From positions 1 to 32,225 of IMG/VR virus record IMGVR_UViG_3300036791_000207: a DNA stretch of 32,225 bases; one strand, 5' to 3'. Shown one piece after another: positions 1 through 31,233 of the stretch. The notes below the pieces were generated by a model. That model ran no database searches and was not told the origin of the DNA. It saw only the letters and a program-made list of their open reading frames with translations. A program made the position numbers and the translations under genes. The DNA is from a virus. Each line of letters begins with the position of its first letter. Within the stretch, counting starts at the first letter, position 1.

Positions 1-114
1 AGGCGGTGTCAATCGGACCTAGGCCCGAGTATCGCGAGAACCGTTTCACGGGGAACACATCGCGATAACGGCAACGTGCGGCGACTCATGCGGCGCGCGT
101 CGTACCCCTTACTC
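1..114. repeat. Terminal direct repeat, left copy
   Basis: Bases 1-114 are repeated at 32112-32225 with one difference (T at 89, C at 32200). No open frame of note lies inside. It contains an inverted pair TATCGCGA (30-37) and TCGCGATA (60-67), and a CCTAGG palindrome. The copy at the very end of the sequence means the molecule is either circular and was opened here with overlap, or linear with short terminal redundancy. Together with a single intact attP, circular or excised DNA is the simpler reading. Confidence 0.9.
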
Positions 115-358: not shown

Positions 359-403
359 TGGTGGGACGGGAGGGGCTCGAACCCTCGACCGCGGCCTTAA
401 AAG
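359..403 (-). other. attP: attP core: 3' half of a tRNA gene (reads as tRNA-Lys UUU)
   Basis: On the minus strand this stretch reads as an anticodon loop CTTTTAA, the 3' side of the anticodon stem GGCCG, a five-base variable region, a T arm (GAGGG, loop TTCGAGC, CCCTC), the acceptor 3' strand CCGTCCC, discriminator A and CCA. The bases that would form the 5' side of the anticodon stem (404-408) do not pair, so only the 3' half is present and this is not a functional tRNA gene. Carrying the tRNA 3' end lets a phage restore the gene after integration. With the loop set as above the anticodon is UUU (Lys). Only one copy exists in the window, which fits attP of excised DNA rather than attL/attR of a prophage. 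Confidence 0.85.
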
Positions 404-521: not shown

Positions 522-559
522 ATTTGCAGAATTTCCCGGGTTTTATAGGAGTTTTGAAA

Positions 560-1759
560 ATGGGTTTTCGTATAGATACCAAGGGCGGGCGCGAGGCGCT
601 CACGGTTCGAAACGCGGAATATTGGGAGCCGATACGCGCGGGCCTATACCTCGGGCTGCGCAAGGGCGCTAAGTCGTCGGCCTGGAAAGGTCGCTATCGC
701 CTCGAGTCGGGCGAGCAAGCGTACAAGACACTCGGCGCCGATCGGCCCGGGTTCAGTTACGCCGAGGCGCGCAAGGCGCTCGAGGTATGGGCGACGTTGC
801 TTGACCAGGGCGTGACCGGGCTCGACGCGGCGGGCGAGGTGGCGACGGTCGCGAGTGCATGCCGCGCGTACGTCAAGAGCCTACGCGTTGCCAAGCGAAC
901 CGCGACCGCGCGCGATAACGATATGTGTTTTCGTCGGCAGGTTTACGGGTACGCGCACGTCGCGGCGCCCGGCGTTCGCAAGGAACCCTCGCACCCGACG
1001 CACGCCCTCGCCGCCCGCGAGCTCGCCAAGGTCACCCGCAACCACCTCTCAGACTGGCGCGACGAGCTCGTCGACGAGGCGGGCTCGGGGCTGTCGCCCT
1101 CGGCGGTGAACCGGGCAATCGGTCGGCTCAAAGCCGCGCTCAACTACGCCGTCGAGACGAACCTCGCGCCCGCGACGTTGAGCACCGAGGCGAAATTCGG
1201 CCTCAAGCGATTCGAGTCGGCGGGCGAGCCGCGGAAAATCTACCTCGACAAAAAGCAGCGCGCGAAATTGCTCGCGGCGATCGACTCGCCCGCGCTGCGC
1301 GATGTGATTGAGGCCGCGATTCTGACCGGCGCCCGCCCGGGCGACTTCGCCGAGCTCGTGCGCGGCGACTTTGATCGCAAACACAAGGTCGCAACGTTTC
1401 GCGCTAAGACCAAGGCGCGCACGGTGCCGCTATCGCCCGACGCGTTCAAATTGTTCGAGCGACGCGCCGAGTCGAAATTGCCCGCCGCGTTTATGTTCAC
1501 GATGGACGACGGGCGCAAGTGGGAGTCGCACGAATGGGCGAAACCGATTCGCGAGGCGGCGGCGAAAGCGGGCCTCGAGCTCGGCGTGTGTCTGTACACC
1601 ATGCGGCACTGTTTCATCACCGACGCACTCGCGGGCGGCATGCCGCCGCTCGACGTCGCCCGCGTCACGGGCACGAGCCTCAAAATGATCGATGAACACT
1701 ATGGGCAATTCGTCAACCAAACCGCCGCGAAACACCTCGCGTCGATATCGATGCTCTAG
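560..1759 (+). CDS. int: Tyrosine recombinase (phage integrase)
   Basis: This 399-residue site-specific recombinase should join attP to the host tRNA site and, with a directionality factor, reverse the reaction. The C-terminal catalytic domain shows Arg259 (TGARPGDFAEL), Lys283/Lys285 in the beta-hairpin (FRAKTKARTVPL), Arg349 in YTMRHCFITDAL and the nucleophile Tyr381 in IDEHYGQF. The His of the HxxR box is Tyr here and the second His box reads GTS, a variation I know from other phage integrases with MGTS..MIE.HYGH endings. The N-terminal ~190 residues hold the arm- and core-binding domains. I start at ATG 560, because TAGGAG at 546-551 is well spaced; an in-frame TTG at 524 lacks such a site. 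The gene reads away from the attP core and ends at a strong terminator. Confidence 0.95.
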   Translation: MGFRIDTKGGREALTVRNAEYWEPIRAGLYLGLRKGAKSSAWKGRYRLESGEQAYKTLGADRPGFSYAEARKALEVWATLLDQGVTGLDAAGEVATVASACRAYVKSLRVAKRTATARDNDMCFRRQVYGYAHVAAPGVRKEPSHPTHALAARELAKVTRNHLSDWRDELVDEAGSGLSPSAVNRAIGRLKAALNYAVETNLAPATLSTEAKFGLKRFESAGEPRKIYLDKKQRAKLLAAIDSPALRDVIEAAILTGARPGDFAELVRGDFDRKHKVATFRAKTKARTVPLSPDAFKLFERRAESKLPAAFMFTMDDGRKWESHEWAKPIREAAAKAGLELGVCLYTMRHCFITDALAGGMPPLDVARVTGTSLKMIDEHYGQFVNQTAAKHLASISML

Positions 1760-1786
1760 GCAATAGTTGCCTACGTTGACCCTCGA

Positions 1787-1814
1787 GGGCGCCGCTATCG
1801 GCGCCCTTTTTTTT
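1787..1814 (+). terminator. Rho-independent terminator after the integrase
   Basis: GGGCGCCG (1787-1794), loop CTAT, CGGCGCCC (1799-1806), then eight T residues. A perfect 8-bp GC stem with a T tract, 27 bases after the integrase stop, separates it from the excisionase-like gene, so the two genes are not simply co-transcribed. Confidence 0.93.
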
Positions 1815-1880
1815 GCCGCGGGCATGTCCTGCGGTCACGCCGCGCCGTGGTCGTGCCGCGTCGCGAAGTGCAAAGGTCTG

Positions 1881-1896
1881 TGTCAGGCGGTGTCAA
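1881..1896. promoter_or_regulatory. Operator-like tandem TGTCA motif, copy 1
   Basis: TGTCAGGCGGTGTCAA holds two TGTCA words exactly 10 bases apart. The same 16 bases occur at 32108-32123, upstream of the AlpA-like gene. Here they lie just before the -35 element of the excisionase-like gene. Read on the minus strand the motif begins with TTGACA, so a -35 element in that direction is an alternative explanation. Confidence 0.5.
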
Positions 1897-1900
1897 ACTC

Positions 1901-1930
1901 TTGAAATAATATTCCACCCGCGTATATAAA
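1901..1930 (+). promoter_or_regulatory. Candidate sigma70-type promoter of the excisionase-like gene
   Basis: TTGAAA (1901-1906) is followed by TATATA (1923-1928, spacing 16) or TATAAA (1925-1930, spacing 18). The stretch is AT-rich within GC-rich DNA and lies about 30 bases before the start codon. The transcript would begin near the hairpin that covers the ribosome-binding site. Confidence 0.6.
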
Positions 1931-1932
1931 CG

Positions 1933-1951
1933 ACTCCCCTTGTGAGGGAGT
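1933..1951 (+). promoter_or_regulatory. Hairpin over the ribosome-binding site of the excisionase-like gene
   Basis: ACTCCC (1933-1938) and GGGAGT (1946-1951) are complementary with a 7-base loop. The right arm contains the GAGGGAG ribosome-binding site of the gene at 1960, so a folded leader would hide it. Function is inferred from the overlap only. Confidence 0.4.
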
Positions 1952-1959
1952 GTGCATAG

Positions 1960-2202
1960 ATGAATAGAACGAACCACAAGTCGCGACCCCTCGAGGCCGC
2001 GCGCGTTGAGGTGCCGCGGCGCCCTCGCTATACCGTCGCCGACGCGGCGGTGCTCATGGGAATATCCCGCTCGCTCGTGTATCAGAGGATTCGCGAGGGC
2101 AAAATCAACTCGGTGCGCGACGGCGCCCGGCGATTCATCACCGCCGCCGAGGTGCGCCGCTACGCGAACGGAATCGCGCCGAGTGCACAAGTCGGTGGAT
2201 AA
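1960..2202 (+). CDS. Excisionase-like / MerR-type helix-turn-helix DNA-binding protein
   Basis: An 80-residue basic protein. Residues ~25-70 match the excisionase/MerR-like winged-helix pattern: YTVADAAVLMGISRSLVYQR is the helix-turn-helix, followed by IREGKINSVRDGARRFITAAEV, where the wing and a final helix are expected. Such proteins act as recombination directionality factors or regulators. The place right after the integrase and the CGTMCA repeats near attP support an excisionase role. ATG 1960 has GAGGGAG at 1944-1950. It has its own candidate promoter and a possible RBS hairpin, and follows the integrase terminator. It could instead be a general repressor of the early region. Confidence 0.8.
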   Translation: MNRTNHKSRPLEAARVEVPRRPRYTVADAAVLMGISRSLVYQRIREGKINSVRDGARRFITAAEVRRYANGIAPSAQVGG

Positions 2203-2218
2203 ATTGTTAGCACATCGT

Positions 2219-2233
2219 GTGCGACTGTCGCAC
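2219..2233. repeat. Small inverted repeat after the excisionase-like gene
   Basis: GTGCGA-CTG-TCGCAC, a perfect 6-bp stem with a 3-base loop, 17 bases after the stop at 2202. There is no T tract, so it is a weak terminator or an operator at best. The rest of 2203-2355 holds no gene; it includes an alternating (CG)6 tract at 2259-2270. Confidence 0.35.
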
Positions 2234-2355
2234 CTCGCGCGGGCTCACTCCTTGAATACGCGCGCGCGCGTTCGGAATCTTACTGCTTACGTAACTACCA
2301 GTTATTAGCGCGGCCACGATTCAACGTTGCCGCGGGCCGCGAGGGAATGTCGCTC

Positions 2356-3036
2356 ATGCGTGAGGCGTTGCGCTCTGAACTCGAACCGATCATTCCGGCG
2401 CGCATGCGCGCCCGACCGATCGACCCGCGCGGCTACTCGGTGCCGTGGTTCGTCGCGGAAATCGACGGCGAGTTTGATTTTCGCGTGATCGGCCCGGGCA
2501 AGTGGGCGCGCGCGATTCGTTTCCGCGTGTGCTGGCTGTGCGGCGAGCCGCTCGGTCGGCTCTACACGTTTTGCATTGGTCCGATGTGCATGGTTAATCG
2601 CATCACATCGGAACCGCCGAGTCATACCGAGTGCGCCGAGTACGCCGCGAAGGCGTGCCCGTTTATGACGCGCCCGCTCGCCCAGTATCGAACGGCGAAC
2701 ACGCCCGAGGGCACGCACAAGCCGCCCGGCGTCGGGCTCACACACAATCCGACCGCGGTCGTACTGTGGACCGCTCACGGTTATTCGATTGTCCGATGTG
2801 GCGACGGGGCGTTGATTAGCCTGGGCGATGATCCCGACGCGCTGTCGTTTTGGACCAAGGGCCGACACGCGACTCGCGCCGAGGTGCTCGAGGCGATGCG
2901 CGTCGGATTCCCGAAGCTACTCGAGGCCGCGAACGCCCAGGGCGGCGACGCGCCGCACGCGCTCGAGCTCGCCGTCGCGCGGGCAATGCCGTTACTACCG
3001 GGCGACCCCGAGCCCGACGAGGTGCCGTTGCTATGA
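2356..3036 (+). CDS. Conserved phage-type zinc-binding protein, unknown function
   Basis: A 226-residue protein whose middle carries likely metal-binding pairs: CWLCGEPLG, then CIGPMC and HTECAEYAAKACPFMTRP. This arrangement is familiar from hypothetical proteins of phages and proteobacteria that seem to bind zinc, but no role is known to me. The C-terminal half has no motif I recognise. ATG 2347 directly abuts GAGGGA, whereas ATG 2356 has that sequence 10 bases upstream, so I prefer 2356. It overlaps the next gene by ATGA and heads a three-gene group running to 3502. Confidence 0.75.
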   Translation: MREALRSELEPIIPARMRARPIDPRGYSVPWFVAEIDGEFDFRVIGPGKWARAIRFRVCWLCGEPLGRLYTFCIGPMCMVNRITSEPPSHTECAEYAAKACPFMTRPLAQYRTANTPEGTHKPPGVGLTHNPTAVVLWTAHGYSIVRCGDGALISLGDDPDALSFWTKGRHATRAEVLEAMRVGFPKLLEAANAQGGDAPHALELAVARAMPLLPGDPEPDEVPLL

Positions 3037-3272
3037 AACTCCTACTCGCCGCAAGGCAATCGATCATTCTCGCCGCCGTGCTCGTCTCGGTGGTGCTCTC
3101 GCTCGTCGCGCTGCCGTTGATCGTCGCGCTCGCGTGCATCATGTCGGGCGTGCGGCGCTTGCGACGCTCGCCGCTGCACCTCGAGGTGCCGCACATCTAC
3201 GCGCCCGGGCCCGGCGACGAGGACGACGACGAGACCGACGAGGACGACATGCATCACCCGAGGCCCGCATGA
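3033..3272 (+). CDS. Small membrane protein with an acidic tail
   Basis: A 79-residue protein. Residues ~9-38 form one long or two short hydrophobic segments (IILAAVLVSVVLSLVALPLI, then VALACIM), followed by the basic stretch GVRRLRR and a very acidic end rich in Asp/Glu (about residues 60-72). Charge pattern suggests an N-terminal membrane anchor with a cytoplasmic tail, though orientation is not certain. Size and a hydrophobic segment would allow a holin-like role, but the early position and lack of an endolysin neighbour argue against a confident call. Confidence 0.65.
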   Translation: MKLLLAARQSIILAAVLVSVVLSLVALPLIVALACIMSGVRRLRRSPLHLEVPHIYAPGPGDEDDDETDEDDMHHPRPA

Positions 3273-3502
3273 CGAGGTGCGAGCACTACGCGTGCCGATG
3301 CGCCCGCGCCGCCGAGCTCGCCGCTATGGCCGACCGATACAACCGCCCGAGCTTATTGCTCGCGGCGATTAACGTGCACTATCGTCAAGTCGAGTGCCGC
3401 ATGCACCCGCCGCCGCGCGGGCCTTATGCATCGATGCCGACGGTGCTTGATGCCGACGCCGCGCAACTTATTTTTGATCGCGAGGTCACGCCTCGTGTCT
3501 AG
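3269..3502 (+). CDS. Small Cys-rich protein, unknown function
   Basis: A 77-residue protein starting with ATG inside the previous stop. The N-terminus MTRCEHYACRCARAAELA carries C-x-x-x-x-C-x-C, and a further Cys-Met-His lies near residue 45 (VECRMHPPP), so a metal site is possible. No family recognised. Its last 17 bases overlap the end of the minus-strand HTH gene, a tail-to-tail arrangement. Confidence 0.6.
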   Translation: MTRCEHYACRCARAAELAAMADRYNRPSLLLAAINVHYRQVECRMHPPPRGPYASMPTVLDADAAQLIFDREVTPRV

Positions 3503-4088
3503 GCTCAGGGTGCAGCAACGTTATCAACGCGAGCGCGACCTCGACTTGCGCGACGCCGCCGAGCTCGATCGACACGAACCGATCGTCGGCGGCGTAGGTC
3601 TCGAGCTTGAGGTGCACGGGCGGCGCGCCGTCGGGCCGCGGCAAGAGCGCGACGGGCATGCGGGCATGTTTGATACTCGGCGCTTTCGGCGGCGCCTCGA
3701 GGTCGTGCCCGTTGCCCTTGCGCAGCACCGCGCCCGGTTTGAATTTACCTTTCGGCTCGAGCAATCGGTGCATCGGCACGCGCAACGCCTCGGCGATAAA
3801 TCCCGCGGTGCGCGGCGTCGGCCAGCCTTTGCCGTTACTGAAATTACGAAACATCGATGCGTTATTGACCGCGAGCGAACCGCTCGAGGTTTTATCGATG
3901 CCCGAAATCGCCGCCGCAATTTTCATGTGGTCGATATCTTTCTCACGCAGCAACTCGGTATAGGCCGCATAGAATTTATTTTTCAACTCGTCGGCACTCG
4001 CTCGAGTCGGCCATTCAAAACCCGCGCGACTCGCGGGCGGCGTCGGTTTTTTTCTTTTCTGCGCAAGACCTTTCAACGGTTTCAACAT
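3486..4088 (-). CDS. HTH (XRE-like) transcriptional regulator, candidate phage repressor
   Basis: A 200-residue protein. Residues ~28-112 look like a divergent Cro/CI-type domain: HMKIAAAISG, an insert, then ASMFRNFSNGKGWPTPRTAG and FIAEALRVPMHRLLE, the usual recognition helix, G-x-x-P-T turn and closing helix. No peptidase (LexA/CI S24) domain follows, so autocleavage is unlikely. ATG 4088 has AAGGAAA just upstream. It is the second gene of a leftward pair opposite the rightward early operon, the usual position of a lysogeny repressor. That role is inferred; the HTH is divergent from consensus because of the insert. Confidence 0.7.
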   Translation of the reverse strand: MLKPLKGLAQKRKKPTPPASRAGFEWPTRASADELKNKFYAAYTELLREKDIDHMKIAAAISGIDKTSSGSLAVNNASMFRNFSNGKGWPTPRTAGFIAEALRVPMHRLLEPKGKFKPGAVLRKGNGHDLEAPPKAPSIKHARMPVALLPRPDGAPPVHLKLETYAADDRFVSIELGGVAQVEVALALITLLHPEPRHEA

Positions 4089-4106
4089 GACACTTTTTCC
4101 TTGTCG

Positions 4107-4364
4107 TTAATGATTTGTTCTCGCCTCGGACACTCGCTCGAGCGCACGCCGCACGAGCCGCCCAACCAAGGGCGCAACGTACTCAACCCGACCGGCACGG
4201 AACGACAGTACCTCGCGATACGCGCTCAACGCCTTGGGCCCAAGTTTTCGCCAGCGATACACCGAGCCGCGACACCGATCGCACAACTCGAGCCCGCCGT
4301 TTGTGCCGCGCCCGTCGGGCAACTCGACGCCGCACTCGGGCACATCGCAATATTTTTTCGCCAC
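4107..4364 (-). CDS. Small zinc-finger-like protein, first gene of the leftward operon
   Basis: An 85-residue protein with Cys pairs at the start: YCDVPECGVELPDG, then LCDRCRGSVYRWRKLG, giving a C4 metal site in residues ~6-33. The rest is helical and basic. The start is GTG at 4364 behind GAGAGGTG. The HTH gene follows 18 bases later on the same strand. It may assist or antagonise that regulator, but no family is known to me. An ATG start at a nearby position would not keep the first Cys pair. Confidence 0.65.
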   Translation of the reverse strand: MAKKYCDVPECGVELPDGRGTNGGLELCDRCRGSVYRWRKLGPKALSAYREVLSFRAGRVEYVAPLVGRLVRRALERVSEARTNH

Positions 4365-4398
4365 AAAATCACCTCTCGTTGTTGGTTACCGAGCGACG

Positions 4399-4404
4399 AA
4401 TATA
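4399..4404 (-). promoter_or_regulatory. Candidate leftward -10 element
   Basis: On the minus strand this reads TATATT, 35 bases before the GTG start at 4364. The -35 position (about 4422-4427) falls inside the 16-bp palindrome and is not a consensus hexamer. Confidence 0.35.
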
Positions 4405-4420
4405 CGCCGCGATTCGCGTG

Positions 4421-4436
4421 CATGGCTATAGCCATG
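4421..4436. promoter_or_regulatory. 16-bp perfect palindrome, candidate operator
   Basis: CATGGCTATAGCCATG is a perfect inverted repeat in the 125-bp gap between the divergent leftward HTH operon and the rightward CsrA operon. It overlaps or touches the expected -35 positions in both directions. A dimeric repressor, such as the protein at 3486, is the natural candidate ligand. Confidence 0.6.
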
Positions 4437-4458
4437 TGTGCAGAGACGTGCGGGTATG

Positions 4459-4464
4459 TATATA
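4459..4464 (+). promoter_or_regulatory. Candidate rightward -10 element
   Basis: TATATA lies about 26 bases before ATG 4490, in an AT-rich patch (TATGTATATAG). No good -35 hexamer is present at the usual distance, so transcription may need an activator or rely on an extended -10. Confidence 0.4.
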
Positions 4465-4489
4465 GAGTGCCACGAGTGCCCGACTCTTG

Positions 4490-4759
4490 ATGATGCGCGC
4501 GTGCCCTGAGTGCGGACGCGAAGCATCGCGCGCAACGTGTTTGCGCAACGCGTTTGCGCGCTCGCGGCCCGGCGATATCGCGGTGTGCGGCGAGTGCGGC
4601 GCCGTGCTGATTTTCACTGAGGCGGGAACGATGCGAAGTATTTGCGACGACGAGCTCGAGCACCTCGGGCCCGCCGTGCGAGGCGAGGCGATGTTGACGA
4701 GTCGGCTAGTGCGTCGCTTTCGTGCCGCACTAAAAACTATAAGCCATAGGAGGCATTGA
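4490..4759 (+). CDS. Zinc-ribbon protein, unknown function
   Basis: An 89-residue protein with two Cys pairs, RACPECGREA near residue 5 and CGECGAVLIF near residue 34, a classic zinc ribbon. A helical C-terminus follows. Start is ATG 4490 or 4493; no good ribosome-binding site is seen, and the candidate promoter would give a leader of only about 20 bases. It is the first gene of the rightward operon and is followed 3 bases later by csrA, so the two are probably co-transcribed. Confidence 0.65.
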   Translation: MMRACPECGREASRATCLRNAFARSRPGDIAVCGECGAVLIFTEAGTMRSICDDELEHLGPAVRGEAMLTSRLVRRFRAALKTISHRRH

Positions 4760-4762
4760 GCA

Positions 4763-4957
4763 ATGTTGATACTAACGAGACGAGTCGGCGAAACGATAAC
4801 GATCGGCGAGCACATCACGGTTACCGTGCTCGGCGTGAAAGGCAATCAAGTACGCGTCGGAGTGGCGGCGCCGAAGGATGTCACCGTGCATCGGGAGGAA
4901 ATTTACGAACGAATCAAACGCGAAGGCGGCGACCGCGGCGAGATACCCGCGGAATAA
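4763..4957 (+). CDS. csrA: CsrA/RsmA family post-transcriptional regulator
   Basis: A 64-residue protein matching CsrA over its full length: [20 protein letters not shown], then [20 protein letters not shown] and [12 protein letters not shown]. CsrA is a homodimer that binds GGA motifs in mRNA leaders, often over the ribosome-binding site, and changes translation or stability. The key RNA-contact residues Leu4 and Arg44 are both present, so it should be active. The form is close to gammaproteobacterial CsrA. AGGAGG (4748-4753) is an unusually strong ribosome-binding site and contains a GGA, so it could be autoregulated. In a phage it may retune host carbon, motility or biofilm control, or control phage genes; that is inference. 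Confidence 0.96.
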
Positions 4958-4975
4958 TTGGCTCGAGGTGTGGCG

Positions 4976-5173
4976 ATGAAATTAACCGGCGCTCGGCGTC
5001 AGTGCTCGGCGTGCGCCGAATATTTCAACTCGCAAAAAAGTTTCGAGCGGCATCGCATCGGCCTCGGAATGGAACGGCGCTGCCGCACCCGCGAGGAAAT
5101 GATCGCGCGCGGGTTCGCGGTCAATGCGGCGGGTTTTTGGGTAACCGAGGCATGGCGCAAGGATGAACCATGA
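4976..5173 (+). CDS. FDXHR-type putative zinc-binding protein
   Basis: A 65-residue protein with CSACAEYFNSQKSFERHR followed by RRC and a GF..N..GFW pattern near the C-terminus. This fits the small phage zinc proteins named after an F-(D/E)-x-H-R motif; Cys-Cys-His-Cys would bind the metal. Role unknown. ATG 4976 is preceded by GAGGTG (4965-4970); the in-frame TTG at 4958 right after the csrA stop is less likely. It overlaps the VRR-NUC gene by ATGA. Confidence 0.75.
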   Translation: MKLTGARRQCSACAEYFNSQKSFERHRIGLGMERRCRTREEMIARGFAVNAAGFWVTEAWRKDEP

Positions 5174-5763
5174 GCTCGCCCGCCGCACTGTACGCCGAGC
5201 TCGTGCGCAAGGCGCCGCGTCGCCGCGGTCATCCCGAGGACGACATACAACGCGCCGTGTGCAAATACTGGGCGCTCAAACATCGCTATACCTGGGAGCG
5301 AACATGGCACACGCCGAACGGGCTCGCCGCGAAAAATAAAAAGCTCGCGGCAATCTTCGCGGGCCTCGGCGTTAAGCCCGGCGTGTTCGATTTAGTGTGC
5401 ATCGCGCGGCGCGGGCCTTACACGGGATTTGCGCTCGAGCTCAAGAGCGCGCACGGTCGCATGAGCGACGAGCAAGAGAACTGGCAAACCCGTTTCATTC
5501 TCGAGGGCTATTACGTCGCGGTCGCGTTCACCCTCGAGGCGGCGATATCATCGATCGATTTTTATCACACGCACGAACTGAGTACGCCCATGCCGCAACG
5601 TAAGCAACCGCCGCCGCGCGGCGACCTTGGAAATGTGTTCGGGCCGCAGACGCCCGCCGAACTCGACGCGATTCTCAAGCCCGCGCCTGCAAAGAAACTG
5701 CCGAGTAATCGGCGCGTAAAATTCCGCGCGCGCCACCCGCGCCCGCCTCGACTCACCCGATAG
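5170..5763 (+). CDS. VRR-NUC domain nuclease
   Basis: A 197-residue protein. The N-terminal two thirds match the VRR-NUC restriction-like fold: an early acidic residue in HPEDDIQRAVCKYW (~residues 20-34), the strand KPGVFDLVCI with the catalytic Asp (~residue 73), and ALELKSAHGRMSDEQ with the E-x-K pair (~residues 89-91). Related phage proteins act as structure-specific or single-strand nucleases in DNA repair and recombination. The C-terminal ~60 residues are Pro- and Arg-rich and unmatched. No replication genes surround it. Start ATG 5170 lies in the previous stop. Confidence 0.88.
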   Translation: MSSPAALYAELVRKAPRRRGHPEDDIQRAVCKYWALKHRYTWERTWHTPNGLAAKNKKLAAIFAGLGVKPGVFDLVCIARRGPYTGFALELKSAHGRMSDEQENWQTRFILEGYYVAVAFTLEAAISSIDFYHTHELSTPMPQRKQPPPRGDLGNVFGPQTPAELDAILKPAPAKKLPSNRRVKFRARHPRPPRLTR

Positions 5764-5775: not shown

Positions 5776-7164
5776 ATGCTGCCGTTCGAAATGCCGACAC
5801 CGTTCGAATTTTTCACCGCGAAGCGAAAAGTATTTGCGCATTATTTTTATACGTTCCCGCTGTCGATCGATAACCGCATGCCGTGGGAGGATTACTACAA
5901 CGTGCAATTTTTGGAACCGGACGGCGAAAGCGGCAAGCATCAAGATCAGGGCGGATTTTTGCGACAACGCCCGCTCGCCCAGGCGCAACAGTACCCGCGC
6001 GACGATACCGCCATGATGTGCAAAGAAATCGAGATGGCAATTGCCCGCGGCATCACGGGGTTTACGTTCGACATGCTGTCGATCGACGACGCGTTGTCGC
6101 CGACCGGGCATTTGCAAATGTTGCTCACCGCCGCCGCGCGCACCGACCCGCGATTTAAAATTGTGCCAATGCCCGATATGGCGAGCATGGGCGATATTAC
6201 CGCCGAGCAACTCGAACAAATTATTCTGTCGGTGAAAGACTCGCGGCAAATCTACCGCCTCGACGATGGGCGCATGCTCGTCTCGCCGTACAACGCAACC
6301 GCGCGTGAGGCGTCATGGTGGAAAGAGGTTATCGACGCGCTCAACTCGCAAGGCGTCGCAATCGCTTTCATGCCGACGATATCGGGCGGCGGCATGCCCG
6401 ACGAGGACATGGTCGCGATCAGTTACGGCTATGCAAATTGGGGCACGGTGATTCCCGAGTCATCGGCGAACCTCGACGCCGCGAACGCGCACGAGCTCGG
6501 GCTCGCCTACATGCTGCCGATCGGCTCGCAACAGTACAGGCCGAAAAATCCGAACTACTGGGAAGCCTCGTGCTCATTGTCGTTTCGTAATTCCTGGCAA
6601 GCCGCGATCGACACTTACGCGGACTATGTGCAAATCGTTACGTGGTCCGATTTTTCGGAAAGCGCGCAGATTCAACCGTTCACCGACAAAGGTCTCGCGG
6701 GCAATATCGGAACGGGTTTCTATGACCTCAATGCGTTTTATGCCGCGTGGTTCGCGACCGGCAGGCAACCGCGCGTGCTGCGCGACGCGCTCTATTGGTT
6801 TCATCGCAAAATGTTTCTCTCGAGCCCGCACCCGAACCAAGTCGACGACACGCCGTGTAACGGTGGCACGCCCGAGGATTCGATCGAGCTCGTCGCGCTA
6901 CTCACGAGCGATGCCGACGTGTGCATCAATGATTCGTGCGTGACCGCGTGCGCGCCGTTTGCTGCCGTCAAGGCGCCTCTCGCCAAGGGCACGCCGCACT
7001 TTGCACTTAAGCGAAACGGCTCGAACGTGTTCGCATTCGATAGCCCGATCGCGGTCGTCGGACCCGACGAGCCGCTCGATACGGGTCTAACCGATCTCAC
7101 CTACTGGTGCGGCAGTGGACAGGCGCCGACGGTGCCGCCCGCCGTCGGCGGTTTCGACTTGTGA
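5776..7164 (+). CDS. GH71-like glycoside hydrolase (endo-alpha-1,3-glucanase family)
   Basis: A 462-residue protein. The start resembles GH71: KVFAHYFYTFPLSIDNR (~residues 18-34), DGESGKHQDQGGFLRQRPL (~50-70), then the barrel strands GITGFTFDMLSIDD, KIVPMPDMASMG, RMLVSPYNATA, AISYGYANWGTVIP and YVQIVTWSDFSES, ending the domain near ALYWFHRKMF (~residue 345). A beta-rich ~110-residue tail with several Cys follows. GH71 enzymes cut alpha-1,3-glucan (mutan-like polymers). No signal peptide is visible, so release would need lysis or virion attachment. AGGAG lies 10 bases upstream of ATG 5776. Family placement is from pattern memory; substrate is inferred. Confidence 0.85.
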   Translation: MLPFEMPTPFEFFTAKRKVFAHYFYTFPLSIDNRMPWEDYYNVQFLEPDGESGKHQDQGGFLRQRPLAQAQQYPRDDTAMMCKEIEMAIARGITGFTFDMLSIDDALSPTGHLQMLLTAAARTDPRFKIVPMPDMASMGDITAEQLEQIILSVKDSRQIYRLDDGRMLVSPYNATAREASWWKEVIDALNSQGVAIAFMPTISGGGMPDEDMVAISYGYANWGTVIPESSANLDAANAHELGLAYMLPIGSQQYRPKNPNYWEASCSLSFRNSWQAAIDTYADYVQIVTWSDFSESAQIQPFTDKGLAGNIGTGFYDLNAFYAAWFATGRQPRVLRDALYWFHRKMFLSSPHPNQVDDTPCNGGTPEDSIELVALLTSDADVCINDSCVTACAPFAAVKAPLAKGTPHFALKRNGSNVFAFDSPIAVVGPDEPLDTGLTDLTYWCGSGQAPTVPPAVGGFDL

Positions 7165-7173: not shown

Positions 7174-7398
7174 ATGCCTCGAGGCAAAACGTTTGACGCC
7201 GAATGTCGGCGGCTCGCGGCGCTGATTCGCCGCAACGCCGACCGCTGCGAGACTGCAACGGGCCCGCGGTGCAAATGTCACTGCGGCGGCGCGCAGCACG
7301 GCAAGCCGCACTCGGCGCGATGGGTCGCGAACACGGCGCGCGCAATGACGCGCGCGCAGTACGAAGGCGCGCAAGCCGAGCTCGAGCTCGAGCAATGA
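7174..7398 (+). CDS. Small Cys/His-rich protein
   Basis: A 74-residue protein with PRCKCHCGGAQHGKPHS (~residues 31-47), a compact cluster of Cys and His that should bind metal, flanked by two helices. Similar C-x-C-x-C-G-G-x-x-H-G motifs occur in phage hypothetical proteins of unknown role. GAGGTG precedes ATG 7174. It starts a run of tightly overlapping small genes leading to the HNH endonuclease. Confidence 0.6.
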   Translation: MPRGKTFDAECRRLAALIRRNADRCETATGPRCKCHCGGAQHGKPHSARWVANTARAMTRAQYEGAQAELELEQ

Positions 7399-8235: not shown

Positions 8236-8395
8236 ATGACGCGACTCGATGCTCGAGCATGCATGGCGCGGCTACGCGATCAAAAAGCGGGGAGCCCGTT
8301 AACAAGGCAGGGGGGGCCCGTAAAATCGCCATTGACGCGCGTCCCGAGCGACGACGTTGGTCGAATTTACGCGCCGACAAATCGGGAAAAACGGC
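8236..8395. other. Gap after the HNH gene; candidate cos region
   Basis: A 160-base stretch without a convincing gene. A frame opens at ATG 8236 and runs to 8610, but it reads through the next gene in another frame and looks unlike a protein. The stretch holds a 12-bp palindrome ATGCTCGAGCAT (8249-8260), GTTAAC (8298-8303), a run of seven G (8310-8316) and GGGCCC. Position between HNH and terminase genes and the palindromes fit a cos site; this is inference. A frameshifted or decayed small gene is the alternative. Confidence 0.35.
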
Positions 8396-8596
8396 ATGTC
8401 TCAACGAAAGTTTTTGATTCTGTGCGTGGTCGCCCTCGCGGCGATTGTCGCGGTCGCGGTCGCGAGCTTTTTGATATTGAACGCATCCGACGATTGCCGC
8501 CGCCGCGTGCACCGTCGGCACTGCATCGTGCACACGTTGCCCGACGGTACGCGCACGCTCGAGTGCCGGTTACTGCCGCGCCGACATCGGGTGTAA
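8396..8596 (+). CDS. Small single-pass membrane protein
   Basis: A 66-residue protein. Residues ~5-29 form one hydrophobic segment (FLILCVVALAAIVAVAVASF), followed by a basic, Cys-containing stretch (DDCRRRVHRRHC) and ECRLLPRRHRV. The N-terminus is short and positive (MSQRKF). It might be an anchored periplasmic peptide or a holin/spanin-like protein; there is no lipobox. No strong ribosome-binding site is visible before ATG 8396, so the start is less sure. The next gene begins 10 bases later. Confidence 0.6.
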   Translation: MSQRKFLILCVVALAAIVAVAVASFLILNASDDCRRRVHRRHCIVHTLPDGTRTLECRLLPRRHRV

Positions 8597-8606
8597 GGGG
8601 CATCGC

Positions 8607-8861
8607 ATGAGGATCACGGGCCCGTTTTACGGCGTGGTCGACGATCGCGGCGACATTCTGCTCGATCAACTAGGGAACCCGATGCTCTACGCGAACGTCG
8701 GCCCGCACTTTGTAGAGAACCAAAAACGCAAAGGGCGCCGCGTGGTGTTCATTTATTTACAAATGCATTACACGTTGCCCGCGAGCGAAACCGATTCGCG
8801 CAATGAATACGCGCGCTCAATCGGCGACATGCCACCAACAACGCGAGGGGAACCGACATGA
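8607..8861 (+). CDS. Hypothetical protein
   Basis: An 84-residue protein starting at ATG 8607 after AAGGGG. Residues ~5-55 look like a small beta domain (YGVVDDRGDILLDQLGNPML) and the end is polar. No Cys pairs or membrane segment. It overlaps the GH16-like gene by ATGA and so is translated with it; it might be a partner of that enzyme, but nothing in the sequence shows this. Confidence 0.55.
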   Translation: MRITGPFYGVVDDRGDILLDQLGNPMLYANVGPHFVENQKRKGRRVVFIYLQMHYTLPASETDSRNEYARSIGDMPPTTRGEPT

Positions 8862-10039
8862 TTATTATTATTCCGCCGTGCCGACGGCGCGAGCGGGTGC
8901 CGACGTTTATTCGCGGCGACGTGAGCACGACCGACCTTTTGCGCCGCTACCCGGCGAAGCGATACCCGGGCTCGAGCGCAAGTACTGAAATGGGTCTCAT
9001 GCAATCGGACGGCGTGCGATGGCTCGTGCAAGGCACGCCGCCGATACCGCCCGGCGCCGCCGAGCTCGGCTACACGCAAAACCTGTACACCGTATTTCCC
9101 GCCGAGGCGGAAATCGCCTACTCGCCCGACGTCAAGGCGCGCATTTATTCGGGGTTCGGCCCGTCGTCGATTCACCCGACGAGCGCGGCGTATACGACCG
9201 ACGAGAACGGGCAATTGCAATTGATCTATCCCGAGGGCGGCGAGGATCGCGGATTGTTTTGCACACAAAACGCGCTCAACTCTCAGCAACTCGCGGGGAA
9301 TCTCGGCACGCTGCCGTACGCACTCGCGGGTCGCGGGCTCTACACGGAATGCGCGTTCACGATTCCGACGCCCGGCGACGTCGATCACTTCAATGCTTTT
9401 TTCGTGATGCCTCAACAGCACAACACGATACAACTCGATTCGAACCCCGCATTCCCGAACAATTACGAGCAATGGCACGAGCTCGACGTGAACGAAAACG
9501 GGCACGGCACCGACCAGGGCGGCGCGTACCGCGGCGCCTATCTGCAATGGGCGGGCGTCTATCGCTGGGCGTGGACGCTCGCGGCGACGCCGACGGTCGG
9601 CGCGACGAGTGTCAAGCTCACGCAACCGTGGACGGGCGAACCCGGTTCGTTCCCGATCAAATTCGATAGCGGCGAATCGCGCAACTCGGTCATGGTCCCG
9701 GGCTCGGTCGGCCCGTACTCGATATCCGCGCTCACGATCGCGTGCAAGACGCCCGCCGTCGAAATTGGCTACACGCGATTTATGTCGCCCTCGAACATTC
9801 AAACGACGCCGCTCGACTACACGACCGAGCACACGTTCGGCGGCGCATACGACCCGATCGGCGGCACTTGGACGATATGGGAGGACGGCAAAAAGCAAAA
9901 AACGGTGAGCACGCGCAGCGCATCCGACAACGCGTTTCGTGATACCGGGCTCATGTACTTACTTTTGCAAACGAACTCTCACGGCAAGAAAAAGGCTAGC
10001 CGAATGAGTGTTCGATACTTCGCGATGTGGACGCCGTGA
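8858..10039 (+). CDS. GH16-like glycanase (concanavalin A-like fold)
   Basis: A 393-residue protein. Residues ~160-235 resemble GH16: a strand GLYTECAFTIPTPGDVDHFN, FFVMPQQH, and then HELDVNENGHG, which holds the family signature E-x-D-x-x-E as Glu208, Asp210 and Glu213 (nucleophile, helper and acid/base by analogy). A typical WTIWEDGKK strand near the end supports the jelly-roll fold. GH16 enzymes cleave beta-1,3/1,4-glucans or galactans. No signal peptide is evident. An N-terminal ~100 residues is unmatched. It is followed directly by terS (GTGA overlap). Without a search I cannot exclude a polysaccharide lyase or lectin of the same fold. Confidence 0.68.
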   Translation: MIIIIPPCRRRERVPTFIRGDVSTTDLLRRYPAKRYPGSSASTEMGLMQSDGVRWLVQGTPPIPPGAAELGYTQNLYTVFPAEAEIAYSPDVKARIYSGFGPSSIHPTSAAYTTDENGQLQLIYPEGGEDRGLFCTQNALNSQQLAGNLGTLPYALAGRGLYTECAFTIPTPGDVDHFNAFFVMPQQHNTIQLDSNPAFPNNYEQWHELDVNENGHGTDQGGAYRGAYLQWAGVYRWAWTLAATPTVGATSVKLTQPWTGEPGSFPIKFDSGESRNSVMVPGSVGPYSISALTIACKTPAVEIGYTRFMSPSNIQTTPLDYTTEHTFGGAYDPIGGTWTIWEDGKKQKTVSTRSASDNAFRDTGLMYLLLQTNSHGKKKASRMSVRYFAMWTP

Positions 10040-10503
10040 GTCGACGCCCGACCGCTACCATTTTGAAATTGATTCGCGGCGCCGACGAGCACCCGTCGCG
10101 GCTCAAGGATGACCGACCGAAAATTGACGAGCGCCCGGTGATGCCGCCCGGGCTGAAACTCTCGAGCGATGAACAGGCGATATTTGATTGGCTACTCGAG
10201 CACGTCTACCGCAAAGGCGTGCACGGCACGGGCGACGCGATTGCGTTCGCGAAAATTGCGCGGCTCACCTCGCGCGTCAATGCGATCGACGCCAAAATCG
10301 CCGAGCACGGGTTACTCATGAAAAATCCAAAAAACAAGAAACCGGAATTGCAACCGTACACCCGGTTAAGCCGCGACCTATGGCAACAACTCGGCATCGC
10401 GCTAGGTGAAATCGGCGCGACGCCCGCGGGGCGCGTCAAACTCGCGGGCCCGCACGGCGGCGGTGCGCTCGGCGAGCCGAGCTCGTGGGACGAAATCAAT
10501 TGA
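10036..10503 (+). CDS. terS: Terminase small subunit, P27 family
   Basis: A 155-residue protein. The N-terminus RRPTATILKLIRGADEHPSR matches the KPTALKLLxGNPxxRP start of P27-type small terminases, followed by the Pro-rich linker MPPGLKLSSDEQAIFDWLLE and helices with DAIAFAKIARLTSRVNAIDA and LSRDLWQQLGIALGEIGATP, the usual C-terminal part. It recognises phage DNA and starts packaging with the large subunit. GTG 10036 overlaps the stop of the glycanase gene; an in-frame GTG at 10027 is also possible. One small gene separates it from terL. Confidence 0.88.
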   Translation: MSRRPTATILKLIRGADEHPSRLKDDRPKIDERPVMPPGLKLSSDEQAIFDWLLEHVYRKGVHGTGDAIAFAKIARLTSRVNAIDAKIAEHGLLMKNPKNKKPELQPYTRLSRDLWQQLGIALGEIGATPAGRVKLAGPHGGGALGEPSSWDEIN

Positions 10504-10751: not shown

Positions 10752-12686
10752 GTGACCGATCAAACCGATTTGTTCGGCAGTACGCCGAAACCGAAACCCG
10801 GGCGCCCGCGGGTGTGGCAACACGAGGGCGACCGGCGCGCGCACGAGAATCGCAAACGGAAAAAGAAACGCACCGCCCGAGCCGACGCGGTACGCGCCGA
10901 CCCTGAGCTCGCCCGGCGCCTCGCGGTACAGGCGCGCATTGACTCGCTCGCGAAACCCGCCGTCGAATTGTTCGTCACCGACGACGACTTGCTCGAGCTC
11001 GCGGGTGAGTATCCGAACGTCGCCGAGGCGTTGCAGTACGCCCGCGACGTGCTCGCGGGGCGCATCGATGCGTGCGAATGGGTACGCCGCGCCTGCGAGC
11101 GGCACGACGGCGACCTCGAGCGCATGGGCGGCGATGATTTCGCCTACACGTTCAACGCCTCGCGGGGCGAGCGGGTGTTGCGCTCGATTCAGATGTTTCG
11201 CGAAATCCGCGGGCCTCGAGCAAAGCAACGATTCCGGTTCGCGCCCTGGCAAAAATTCATTATTGCCTCGGTGTTCGGCTGGGTCGACGCCCGCGGCGCC
11301 CGGCGCTTTCGGTACGTGTTCGTCGCCGTGCCTCGAGGCAATGGCAAATCTTCGCTCGCCGCGACCCTCGGGCTCTACGCGGTCGCGCTCGACGGCGAGG
11401 GCGGCGCCGAGGTGTACGCCGCGGCGGTGACGCGCGACCAAGCTCGAATCGTGTTCGACGCCGCGGTGCATATGGCGCGAGGCGACGAGCAATTTCGCCG
11501 CAAGTACGGCATTGAATTGAACGCGCGCGCGATTCTGCAAGTCGACTCGGCGTCGATATTCCGCCCGCTGTCGCGCGACGCCCAGGCGCTCGACGGGCTC
11601 AACGTGCATATGGCGATACTCGACGAGCTCGCCGCCCACAAAACGCGCGAGGTTCACGACATTCTCGTTACCGCGACGGGCAAGCGCTCGCAATCGCTGA
11701 TTTTCTGCATCACGACGGCGGGCGCGAATCAATCGGGCATCGGGTTTGAGCAATGGAAGTACACGCAACGGGTGCTCGCGGGGCAATCGGTCGACGAGTC
11801 GTTTTTCGGAATCATTTACACGATCGACGACGCCGACGATTGGCAATCGCCCGACGTGTGGGCAAAGGCTAATCCGAATTGGGGCACCTCGGTCAACCCG
11901 GGCGTGATTCAAAACCTCGCGCAACGTGCTCGAGCAATCGCCAGCCAACAAAACGCGTTCAAGCAAAAGCATTTAAACGTTTGGACGAATGCCGCGGTCG
12001 CGTGGATGAACATGGTTCAATGGCAAGCGCTCGGCGACGGCGAGCTCGTCGAGGCATCGTTCAACGGTGACGAGTGCGTGATCGGGCTCGACCTCGCGGC
12101 GAAAGTCGACCTCGCCGCTCGAGTCAAATTGTTTCGCCGACCGATCGACGGCGTGTTGCATTACTACGCGTTCGCGCACTTCTATTTGCCCGAGGCCGCG
12201 ATCGTCGACGGGCGCAATGCCTCATACGAAACATGGCAGGGCGAAGGCTGGATAACGGCGACGCCCGGCGAGGTCACCGACTTTAACGTCATCGAGTCGG
12301 ACCTATTGAACGACGCCGCGCATCACCGCGTGCTCGATATCGCTTACGACCCGTGGCAAGCCTTGCAACTCGCGAGCAACTTAGCGGCGAAAGATATCTC
12401 GGTCATTGAGTACCGCCCGACGACCGCGAATTTTTCGCCAGCGATGAAGGAAATCGACGCGCTCGTGCGGCAAGGTCGCTTTCATCACGACGCGAACCCG
12501 GTGCTCGCGTGGAACGTCGCTTGTGTTGAGGTGATGGAAGATTTCAAAGGCAACATTTACCCGCGAAAAGATCGCGACGACCCGCACCAAAAAATCGACG
12601 GGCTCGTCGCGTTGTTGATGGCAATGGGTCGCTTGATGGCGCTCGACGCCGCGCCCGAGGCGGTGCCGAGTTTGACGTTTCTGTAA
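10752..12686 (+). CDS. terL: Terminase large subunit
   Basis: A 644-residue packaging motor. The ATPase shows Walker A VPRGNGKSS (~residues 193-201) and Walker B HMAILDELAAH (~285-295), with coupling motif SLIFCITTAG. The nuclease half has the acidic motif VIGLDLAAKVDLAA (~440-453) and the C-terminal KIDGLVALLMAMGR with its conserved Asp. It cuts concatemers and pumps DNA into the prohead. The basic, Lys/Arg-rich N-terminus (KRKKKR) is longer than usual before the ATPase. Start GTG 10752; a clear ribosome-binding site is not visible. Confidence 0.96.
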   Translation: MTDQTDLFGSTPKPKPGRPRVWQHEGDRRAHENRKRKKKRTARADAVRADPELARRLAVQARIDSLAKPAVELFVTDDDLLELAGEYPNVAEALQYARDVLAGRIDACEWVRRACERHDGDLERMGGDDFAYTFNASRGERVLRSIQMFREIRGPRAKQRFRFAPWQKFIIASVFGWVDARGARRFRYVFVAVPRGNGKSSLAATLGLYAVALDGEGGAEVYAAAVTRDQARIVFDAAVHMARGDEQFRRKYGIELNARAILQVDSASIFRPLSRDAQALDGLNVHMAILDELAAHKTREVHDILVTATGKRSQSLIFCITTAGANQSGIGFEQWKYTQRVLAGQSVDESFFGIIYTIDDADDWQSPDVWAKANPNWGTSVNPGVIQNLAQRARAIASQQNAFKQKHLNVWTNAAVAWMNMVQWQALGDGELVEASFNGDECVIGLDLAAKVDLAARVKLFRRPIDGVLHYYAFAHFYLPEAAIVDGRNASYETWQGEGWITATPGEVTDFNVIESDLLNDAAHHRVLDIAYDPWQALQLASNLAAKDISVIEYRPTTANFSPAMKEIDALVRQGRFHHDANPVLAWNVACVEVMEDFKGNIYPRKDRDDPHQKIDGLVALLMAMGRLMALDAAPEAVPSLTFL

Positions 12687-28125: not shown

Positions 28126-28328
28126 GGCTCGTCAAGGCGGCGCGCGCGCCCGGCTGCTGTAGCAAGTGCGGCAAAATGGGCGCGATATTCCGCAAGCCGC
28201 TCGAGCTCGAGGCGGGCGTCGCCGCCGCGCTCGCCAAGCAACTCGACACCGAGGCCGCGATTCGCGAGCGCATCGTCGACATGCGCGCGAACGGTCTGCT
28301 ACTCGAAATAACGGAGCAAAACTTATGA
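28122..28328 (+). CDS. Small protein with Cys motif
   Basis: A 68-residue protein starting with GTG inside the stop of the tip gene (GTGA). PGCCSKCGKMGAIFRKPLEL gives a C-C-x-x-C site, followed by a helix (AGVAAALAKQLDTEAAIRER). No family recognised. It ends in an ATGA overlap with the tail fibre gene, so it is co-translated with the adsorption proteins and could be an assembly helper for the fibre. Confidence 0.5.
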   Translation: MRLVKAARAPGCCSKCGKMGAIFRKPLELEAGVAAALAKQLDTEAAIRERIVDMRANGLLLEITEQNL

Positions 28329-30958
28329 CGACAACGCTCGCGAGAATTTTGTTGCTGTCGCGGACCTCGGCGGCGCTCAACGGGTCCGACCCGATTTTGC
28401 TCGATGGCGAGCTCGCTATCGCCGATTCGGGCTCGACGTTTCCGATCGTGAAAATCGGCGACGGCGTGCGGCATTGGTCGACGCTGCCGATATTGAACGG
28501 CGGCTCGAGCGCGGCACCGCCTCAATTCGCCGTGCAATACAACGTCGGCGGCGTACCGCACGGCAGCGCGGCGTTCACGTTCGACGGCACGACGGCGACG
28601 ATCAATTGCGCGAGCGCTCAAAACGCGCTAGTGATTAACGGGCCGACCGCGCCCGCGAGTTACGACCCAATTGTAAGTATCAATCAGACGGCGATTATTC
28701 CGGGCGGCTCGGCGAACGTCGGTTTGCAATTTGATGCAGAGATGAAAGGCGCCGCCGTGTCGCAACCGTTTATCACGGTGCGCAACGATGCGAGCGGCGG
28801 CGACTTTGTGTTTCAACGCGCCGCGACGAATTTTAGCGGCACGCTCGTCACGAGCGGACCCTCGGGCCCGGCGATATCGATGATCGCGAGCGGCGTCGGC
28901 GAGGCGTACATACTCGGCGCGGGCGGACGCACGACGATTTACATGCCCGCCGCGGGCGGCGCAATCATTCCGGCACCGCCCGCGACCAAAGTCGCTCTCA
29001 CTGTGGCGGGCGCAGCGAATCAACCCGTCGCGATTTTGAACGCGCCGACGACGACCGGGCAAAGCCTCGGGCTACAGGTCAACGCGGGCACGAACTCGAG
29101 CGACTGGGCGCTCAACGTCAACACGCAAACCGGGCACCCGTTGCTCGGCTGTTACGGCGACGGCTCTTTTTTCATCGGATTCAATGGCGCTAATCCGACG
29201 CTGCGCGGCTCGGCGGCGGGCGGCGTGTCGGTGGCAGTGCCCGCGGCGGCGACGACGACGCTCGCCCTCGCGACCTCGAGCGGGAGCACGGCGCTCGCGA
29301 TCAGCGGGCCGACGGTGGCGCCGACGACGTTCGCGCCGCTCGAATTAATTACGCAAACGGTGGGCGCATCGTCGAACGGTGCACCGCAAATCGCGCTTAT
29401 GCTCAAGTCAACGATCGCGGGCGCGGCAATCATGACGCCCGCTATCGATATTCAAAACGACAACTCGAGCGGCGATTTTCTCGTGTGGCGAACGGCGAGC
29501 GCATTCACGGGCGCCGTTATCACTGGCGCGCCCGCGGGCCCGGCGACCGCACTCGTCACGCAAGGCGCGGGCGAGAGTTTGGTATTCGGCACGAATGGCA
29601 AGGCGGCGATGTGGATAACCGCCGCGGGCAATGTGACGTTCGCGGCGCAGTCGAGCGGCGCGGGCCTCACGCTATCGGGCGTGGCGCCGTTCACGGGGCT
29701 CGCGGTCAACAGCACGGGGCCCGGGCGCCTCGACGCACTCGTCGCGAACAATACGAACGGCGCGAGCGGCGATAATGTGCGATGGGAATTAATCGCGGGG
29801 ACAACCGACTTTTCGGGCTACGCCGTGCCGTCGCTGAATTCGGTCGCGATAGTCACGGGCGGGCCGACGGGTCCGCAGGGCGTCATCCGCACGAGCACGA
29901 ATTGCCCGATCGTGTTCGGTACGCTGGGCATTTTCCGCGGGCAGGTCGACGGTAGCGGCTCGTGGACCCTCGCGGCGCCGACGGCGGGCTCGGGGCCCGT
30001 GCTCGCGACGAAAGCCTCGGCGCTTAACTCGAGCATCATTCAGGGCGTCGACTCGACGGGCGTCAATACGGTAGCGCTGCAATCGAGCGCCGCGGTCGGC
30101 TATGTCGGTTCCATATCGAACACGGCGTTCGCTCTTTTCACCAACAACGCGAACCGCATAACGATCAGCAATACGGGCGCCGTGGCGATTGTGGCGCCCA
30201 CCTCGGGCGTTGCGCTCACCGTCGCGGGCGTTGCGGGCGCGTCTAACACGTTGAGTCTCGATTTAACGGCGGGCGTTGCGGGCCTCGTATTCACGGTGGC
30301 GAACACGACCGCGACGAGTTTGTTTAGCTATGGAAATGTGGCGGCGACGGTGTTCGGTGGGATGAATGTCACCGCGGCGGGCACGCTGCAACTCGGGCCC
30401 GGTAACGCCAATGCGTTCAACTTAGTTACAAACAATGCAGCGCGCATCAGTATCGACCCGAACGGCGCGGTCAGCATTTTCGCGCCCGCCGCGGGCTCGA
30501 CGTTGAGCATTGTCACGCTCGCGAATCAACGCGGCATCAGCATAACGACGACCGCGGCGAGCGGCTCGGCGTCGATTTCAATGGACAATCAATCGGGCTC
30601 GTTTATTCAATTCGGCGGTAACGGTTCGGTGTTCGGTTGGGTCGGTTCCTCGGCGCAAATTGCGGGCGGCGCGCTACTCGATATGGCGGTATCGACGAAC
30701 ACGACCTCGAACGGTTTGATACTGGCGACGGCGGCGACGGCTCGCCTCATCATTTCCGGCACGGGTGACTGCCGATTTGCGGGTGCGCTCGCGATGAACA
30801 ACAAAACAGCCTACGGGGGCTCGGCTGGATGGGGCACGCCGACGGGCGGCGGCGTGCTCGCGAATTTTCCGGGCGCCTCGGCGACGCTCGTGCAGTGCTC
30901 TAATACCATTTCGACGTTGATCCAGATTCTTAAAAATTTCGGTTTGATGCTCGCCTAA
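28325..30958 (+). CDS. Repeat-built tail fibre protein
   Basis: An 877-residue protein. Residues ~10-60 (LLLSRTSAALNGSDPILLDG, KIGDGVRHWSTLPILNGG) match the N-terminal domain of fibre proteins of the Mtd type that attach to the tail. Beyond it the protein is Ala/Gly/Ser/Thr-rich beta repeat. Two ~105-residue stretches are clear copies: one starting near NGPTAPASYDPIVSINQT, the other near SGPTVAPTTFAPLELITQ, sharing PxIxxxNDxSxGDFxxxR and GxGExxxxGxxGKx. The ending STLIQILKNFGLMLA is typical of fibre C-termini. I start at ATG 28325; the frame is open further upstream but lacks a start matching the context. Confidence 0.82.
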   Translation: MTTTLARILLLSRTSAALNGSDPILLDGELAIADSGSTFPIVKIGDGVRHWSTLPILNGGSSAAPPQFAVQYNVGGVPHGSAAFTFDGTTATINCASAQNALVINGPTAPASYDPIVSINQTAIIPGGSANVGLQFDAEMKGAAVSQPFITVRNDASGGDFVFQRAATNFSGTLVTSGPSGPAISMIASGVGEAYILGAGGRTTIYMPAAGGAIIPAPPATKVALTVAGAANQPVAILNAPTTTGQSLGLQVNAGTNSSDWALNVNTQTGHPLLGCYGDGSFFIGFNGANPTLRGSAAGGVSVAVPAAATTTLALATSSGSTALAISGPTVAPTTFAPLELITQTVGASSNGAPQIALMLKSTIAGAAIMTPAIDIQNDNSSGDFLVWRTASAFTGAVITGAPAGPATALVTQGAGESLVFGTNGKAAMWITAAGNVTFAAQSSGAGLTLSGVAPFTGLAVNSTGPGRLDALVANNTNGASGDNVRWELIAGTTDFSGYAVPSLNSVAIVTGGPTGPQGVIRTSTNCPIVFGTLGIFRGQVDGSGSWTLAAPTAGSGPVLATKASALNSSIIQGVDSTGVNTVALQSSAAVGYVGSISNTAFALFTNNANRITISNTGAVAIVAPTSGVALTVAGVAGASNTLSLDLTAGVAGLVFTVANTTATSLFSYGNVAATVFGGMNVTAAGTLQLGPGNANAFNLVTNNAARISIDPNGAVSIFAPAAGSTLSIVTLANQRGISITTTAASGSASISMDNQSGSFIQFGGNGSVFGWVGSSAQIAGGALLDMAVSTNTTSNGLILATAATARLIISGTGDCRFAGALAMNNKTAYGGSAGWGTPTGGGVLANFPGASATLVQCSNTISTLIQILKNFGLMLA

Positions 30959-30978
30959 TTTGCTAGGAGGTTTTTGCA

Positions 30979-31233
30979 ATGGCCGACAATCAGGTACAGA
31001 TACAACCCGCGACCGCGGCGCAATGGGCGCTAGATTTTTTGCAGCGCGCGAACATGACCGGCGCCGACGTCGAGCGATTCGGCGTTGCGCGCGCGATGCT
31101 ACAAGCAATCGCCGCGGGCTCGGTGCTCGTGACGCCCTCGAGCGCCATGCTCGAGCAAGCCGACGCCGAGCGGCTCAAGGCGGCGGGCACGAACGGCGCG
31201 GCGAACGGCGCGGCGGCAGACTCGCCGCCGTGA
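30979..31233 (+). CDS. Small protein after the tail fibre
   Basis: An 84-residue protein with a strong ribosome-binding site (TAGGAGG, 30963-30969) before ATG 30979. Helical N-terminus (AAQWALDFLQRANMTGADVE) and a flexible C-terminal end rich in Ala, Asn and Gly. No membrane segment, so it is not an obvious holin. Unknown function; highly expressed if the ribosome-binding site is a guide. Confidence 0.6.
   Translation: MADNQVQIQPATAAQWALDFLQRANMTGADVERFGVARAMLQAIAAGSVLVTPSSAMLEQADAERLKAAGTNGAANGAAADSPP

Follow-up and report, generated by a model that had tools for sequence, protein, structure and literature searches.

α-1,3-Glucan is a polysaccharide that occurs in biofilms and in the walls of fungi. 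Work on glycoside hydrolase family GH71 has dealt with fungal and bacterial members, most of which are secreted. The described systems closest to the protein reported here are Agn1 from S. pombe (8yfh) and AnGH71C from A. nidulans (9fnf-9fnh), which share its fold, its C-terminal β-sandwich, and its DxxE motif (VIA Z 35-37 over 365-369 residues). DxxE is the GH71 catalytic dyad, and replacement of either acid lowers activity 200 to 15,000-fold (PMC12394665). In contrast to Agn1 and AnGH71C, to which it is about 20% identical, our protein is phage-encoded, lacks a signal peptide, and falls in a separate clade.

Results

Phage record and gene content

The window, which is the whole stretch of DNA analyzed, is an entire virus record (IMG/VR IMGVR_UViG_3300036791_000207, 32,225 nt) with a 114-nt direct terminal repeat. 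Because of this repeat, the record is complete or circular (complete or nearly so). Its gene set includes a tyrosine integrase, terminase, capsid, portal, tail tube, tape measure, and a gpJ-like protein. The features relevant to this work are as follows.

1..114, no strand: terminal direct repeat, left copy (right copy 32112-32225, 1 mismatch)
359..403, minus: tRNA-like 3' end, possible attP core (sequence inspection)
551..1759, plus: tyrosine integrase of a temperate phage (PF00589, 8e-9)
4763..4957, plus: CsrA-like global regulator, accessory (PF02599, 2.3e-25)
5170..5763, plus: VRR_NUC-like nuclease directly upstream of GH71 (VRR_NUC, 2.5e-4, just below cut-off)
5776..7164, plus: GH71 α-1,3-glucanase-like protein, 462 aa, catalytic domain and C-terminal β-sandwich (Pfam, model, VIA)
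7174..7398, plus: small Cys-rich protein (sister-phage comparison)
7879..8235, plus: HNH endonuclease (PF01844, 8e-6)
8858..10039, plus: 393-aa protein without a known family (ELDVNE resembles GH16 ExDxxE by eye only)
10027..10503, plus: terminase small subunit (PF05119, 2.8e-6)
10752..12686, plus: terminase large subunit, TerL (PF20441, 1.3e-42; phrog_9, 8e-152)

Judged from the integrase, the tRNA-like possible attP, and the genes running from terminase through tail, the virus is a temperate siphophage, in agreement with the siphovirus named in the original prediction. Profile matches to the neighboring genes also confirm the predicted location of the GH71 gene between an early nuclease and the HNH/terminase genes, outside the tail module. 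The nuclease itself matches phrog_824 (5e-26) and the Holliday junction resolvase phrog_5702 (8e-11). In the host search, the tRNA-like att sequence had no match in 398 Pseudomonadota genomes, and no endolysin or holin was recognized across the whole window.

Several other reading frames were inspected. The 393-aa ORF at 8858-10039 has phage-like codon usage, but its reading as a second glucanase from the GH16-like motif is unsupported: the protein belongs to no Pfam, PHROG, or NCBIfam family, has no meaningful PDB match, and gave a single-sequence model with a pLDDT of 31. A minus-strand ORF at 3486-4088 has coding-like codon usage and is kept in sister phages; by eye it could be a repressor, with no family match. 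The region 3' of the fiber gene (28166-32058) consists of short ORFs without an assigned family, together with an AlpA-like gene on the minus strand.

A full-length GH71 protein

The ORF at 5776-7164 (plus strand) is uninterrupted, opens with an ATG at 5776, and encodes 462 aa. The start codon lies 12 nt downstream of the nuclease stop, and an AGGAG motif precedes the ORF. A stop-free run of 462 codons was found in 0 of 200 base shuffles of the window, and codon usage (0.29 per codon, compared with 0.23-0.41) is like that of structural genes. Together with the catalytic dyad described below, length and codon usage rule out a pseudogene or chance ORF. The protein matches Pfam PF03659 (Glyco_hydro_71) with an E value of 9.3e-30 and a score of 104.1 bits against a cut-off of 34; the match spans residues 78-419 and profile positions 15-374 of 375. 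A sequence search of the PDB returned Agn1 (8yfh, 6.8e-11) and AnGH71C (9fnf, 1.9e-6), and no model in PHROGs or NCBIfam matched the protein.

The structure prediction against GH71 that had been proposed as a check was carried out with AlphaFold2 using a 25-sequence alignment, which resulted in a model with a pLDDT of 92.3 and a pTM of 0.92. The best Foldseek match in the PDB is Agn1 (4.5e-26), to which the model aligns with a VIA Z of 37.3 over 368 residues; AnGH71C follows at 35.8. The alignment to 8yfh covers residues 18-450 and includes the C-terminal β-sandwich packed against the barrel, as in GH71. The dyad is encoded as follows.

6649..6660, plus: codons of D292-F-S-E295, the DxxE catalytic dyad (alignment)

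Both D292 and E295 are invariant across 25 aligned GH71 proteins. D292 aligns with the site of the Agn1 D237N substitution (mutant 9m6l compared with 8yfh), and the dyad as a whole aligns with the D265/E268 motif of AnGH71C. The GH99 endo-α-mannanases have a related barrel, but the fold match is weaker (Z 24.9) and their first dyad residue is Glu, whereas the window protein has Asp292 and the GH71 C-terminal domain; GH99 membership is thus ruled out. By alignment, the catalytic acids are therefore present. Neither placement in another family nor loss of the catalytic acids, which the original prediction of a GH71-like enzyme had named as grounds against it, was found. Taken together, the profile match, the model, and the dyad show that the window protein is a full-length, intact-looking GH71 enzyme that is predicted to cut α-1,3-glucan.

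Insertion site in sister phages

Sister phages were defined as 8 viral records, several of them fragmentary, with TerL proteins 70-75% identical to that of the window. The nuclease upstream of GH71 is conserved in sister phages, and the GH71 gene is absent from 8 of 8 records (several fragmentary). L040 and L043 have the small Cys-rich gene directly after the nuclease, with no GH71 between. From this adjacency, GH71 is evidently an exchangeable accessory insertion between the VRR-type nuclease and the small Cys-rich gene. In the sister record L037, the nuclease-HNH interval (1542-5376) is a variable accessory region. It encodes an unassigned protein of 511 aa along with a ParB-like protein and one for Mom DNA modification (PF25680, 4.7e-51). 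The gene for the 511-aa protein lies at the corresponding place, and the idea that it is pectate-lyase-like was unsupported.

Relatives and phylogeny

No GH71 relative was found among the cultured phages in the collection searched, and a single-sequence scan of viral contigs with the window protein also gave none. For this reason, alignment-based scans of IMG/VR were used, and these uncovered 14 further viral GH71 genes in 13 records. BFVD held no close GH71-like viral model. The cellular relatives comprise 24 loci from the genome collection and one Nonomuraea record.

In the final tree, the window and 12 viral genes form one phage-only clade with a support of 100/100, apart from bacterial GH71. 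The two remaining viral genes, L004 and L005, are placed with enzymes from actinobacteria, and a single clade for all viral GH71 was weakly rejected (p-AU 0.04, earlier tree). The records also differ in their packaging proteins: the window carries TerL phrog_9, L030 carries TerL phrog_38 and portal phrog_156, and L032 and L034 carry portal phrog_1216. Based on these differences, the GH71 gene is one that moves between unrelated phages. In one record, L003, the gene directly upstream of GH71 (8317-9963) is methyltransferase-like with an apparent intein (Hint and LAGLIDADG matches).

Identity to the window protein is 39-50% within the phage clade, about 31-38% for bacterial GH71, and 19-21% for characterized fungal enzymes; no characterized enzyme was found in the phage clade or the nearest bacterial clades. 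This distance from the bacterial and fungal enzymes, along with the closer resemblance among phage clade members, would fit a different α-linked polymer as the substrate, such as a host-specific exopolysaccharide or a mixed-linkage glucan, reached by the same release route. Set against it are the Asp-x-x-Glu dyad and a fold that is nearer to α-1,3-glucanases than to GH99 mannanases (Z 37 versus 25), and we regard such a substrate as very improbable.

Export signals

Signal-peptide-like N termini are present in 25 of 25 cellular relatives, of which 23 were scored by a simple test of hydrophobicity and the other two, L021 and L025, by eye. By the same tests, none of the viral GH71 proteins has one. 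It should be noted that the test is home-made and is not SignalP. The window protein, which had been predicted to lack a signal peptide, indeed has an N terminus without signal-like features. The free phage GH71 proteins start beside a conserved LPF, close to where the mature catalytic domain begins. A few GH71 members without a signal peptide are known, making the signal a usual trait but not a strictly defining one (PMC12394665).

These findings bear on whether the gene serves the host. As an auxiliary or lysogenic-conversion gene, GH71 would help the host or lysogen use environmental α-1,3-glucan (e.g., of fungal walls) or oligosaccharides. The phage is temperate by its integrase, CAZyme genes occur in soil viruses with one viral chitosanase proven active (PMC9485262), and AnGH71 enzymes prefer nigero-oligosaccharides over polymer (PMC12394665). 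However, the bacterial relatives share an export signal that the phage protein does not have, and a free cytoplasmic enzyme could not reach the polymer until lysis. In addition, the gene lies on the same strand directly behind the nuclease, upstream of the packaging genes, and no promoter-like site of its own was found just upstream. Since such a role needs export and no export signal is present, the proposal that the enzyme is carried as cargo for the lysogen is disfavored, and the auxiliary role is quite improbable.

Lysis and tail contexts of GH71 genes

With a cytoplasmic enzyme and an extracellular polymer, exit would be either by lysis or on the virion, and relatives of the window gene are found in both contexts. 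In L036, the lysis cassette runs in the order endolysin (9244-9744; phrog_90, 1.4e-26), holin-like ORF, GH71, and an Rz-like gene within which lies an Rz1-like lipoprotein frame. The holin-like ORF ends just 5' of GH71 and was called by eye, with no Pfam match, and the match of the Rz-like spanin is weak (E 0.02). The L036 GH71 is 44-46% identical to the window protein, and its position in the cassette suggests that the lysis-release route is used. A GH24 endolysin and an Rz spanin lie upstream of GH71 in L033, as does a GTA_holin_3TM (6.8e-23) in L075. Others, namely the window, L030, L031, L035, L032, and L034, have GH71 near nucleases or packaging genes. Release at lysis, as originally proposed, thus gains support from relatives in (L036) or near (L033, L075) lysis cassettes but not from the position of the window copy, which lies outside any such cassette, upstream of terminase.

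Three relatives (L073, L074, and L076) are larger fused proteins. L073 consists of DUF2460, a glycine linker, GH71, CHB_HEX_C, and a legume lectin, and L076 is also a DUF2460-GH71 fusion; in both, hub-like, NlpC/P60, and large tail genes come next. In L074, GH71 sits behind a different N-terminal region with a Big_1-like domain. L036 and L074 are on one 132,772-bp virus record, about 72 kb apart, which therefore carries a lysis-cassette copy and a fused copy. The tail fusions suggest that the virion route is also used, and since three relatives are fused, including two joined to a tail domain, a virion role is likely for the GH71 family despite the free-standing window copy.

For the window enzyme itself, a virion role would involve non-covalent binding to the tail or head and digestion of a glucan capsule on entry, as by a depolymerase. 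The DUF2460 fusions ahead of tail genes, the Big_1-like fusion, and the L004 GH71, which sits between a tail-fiber gene and the tape measure, are consistent with such a component. However, no anchor, linker, or lectin domain was found in the window protein, which starts at the catalytic domain, its gene and the tail genes are about 11-21 kb apart, and a search of the window for DUF2460 found none. We therefore consider a virion-bound window enzyme unlikely. Because the window copy has no anchor, release at lysis is the better guess for it.

Co-occurrence with CsrA

A CsrA gene (4763-4957) lies upstream of the nuclease-GH71 pair, and 3 other GH71 virus records also carry CsrA. CsrA was found in 4 of 14 GH71 records and, above the cut-off, in 0 of 30 control viral records (one-sided Fisher p 0.007), the controls being few and not host-matched. 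CsrA is absent from the 8 sister-phage records and was found by tblastn in 85 of 50,697 cultured phage records. Given the few controls and unmatched hosts, the CsrA-GH71 association is a lead only. If true, phage CsrA could switch off matrix production of the host.

Discussion

Our current hypothesis, which we hold to be somewhat better than even, is that the window protein is a soluble, cytoplasmic matrix glucanase that is released at lysis and acts on α-1,3-glucan to help progeny spread. The free-standing enzyme would accumulate in the cytoplasm late in infection and be set free when the cell bursts. It would then act by inverting hydrolysis on α-1,3-glucan, or on a glucan with many such linkages, whether in the capsule, in the biofilm, or in the surrounding matrix. 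Cutting of the matrix could allow progeny to disperse and reach new cells. There is precedent in principle for phage depolymerases that are soluble (PMC7232179). More generally, viruses with this GH71 probably use the enzyme to pass a glucan matrix. A broader scheme, which we put forward tentatively as a possibility, is a phage-specific GH71 family from which unrelated environmental phages employ a tail fusion for entry and an unsecreted lysis-time enzyme for exit, sometimes alongside a CsrA that could silence the host matrix.

The phage-only branch, with its missing export signals and its lysis-cassette and tail-region contexts, suggests that α-1,3-glucan matrices are a barrier for environmental phages, and the phage enzymes could provide a direct test of whether such matrices protect cells from phage. 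They may also be a compact source of glucanase for biofilm and plaque work. A literature search, with most subscription papers outside its scope, found no relevant paper linking GH71 to phages or to viral auxiliary genes. While the enzyme family is known, neither the phage clade nor the two ways in which it is deployed appear to have been described.

The nearest cellular counterparts are the bacterial GH71 proteins (Nonomuraea, Cryobacterium, Verrucomicrobia, and Planctomycetes; L002, L006-L027), which align with the window protein over nearly the whole length at the 31-38% identity given above. Unlike the window protein, they are exported and many have an extra N-terminal region. The soil viral CAZyme V-Csn, a chitosanase, is likewise a glycoside hydrolase of an environmental phage (PMC9485262). 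It belongs to a different family, and the lysis-cassette and tail-fusion contexts of phage GH71 point to a role in infection rather than in host nutrition. Phage capsule and EPS depolymerases, whether tail-anchored or soluble, also target extracellular polysaccharide (PMC7232179), and phage GH71 proteins similarly occur both free and fused to tail domains. The window copy differs in that it is free-standing and in that GH71 was not found among the described depolymerases.
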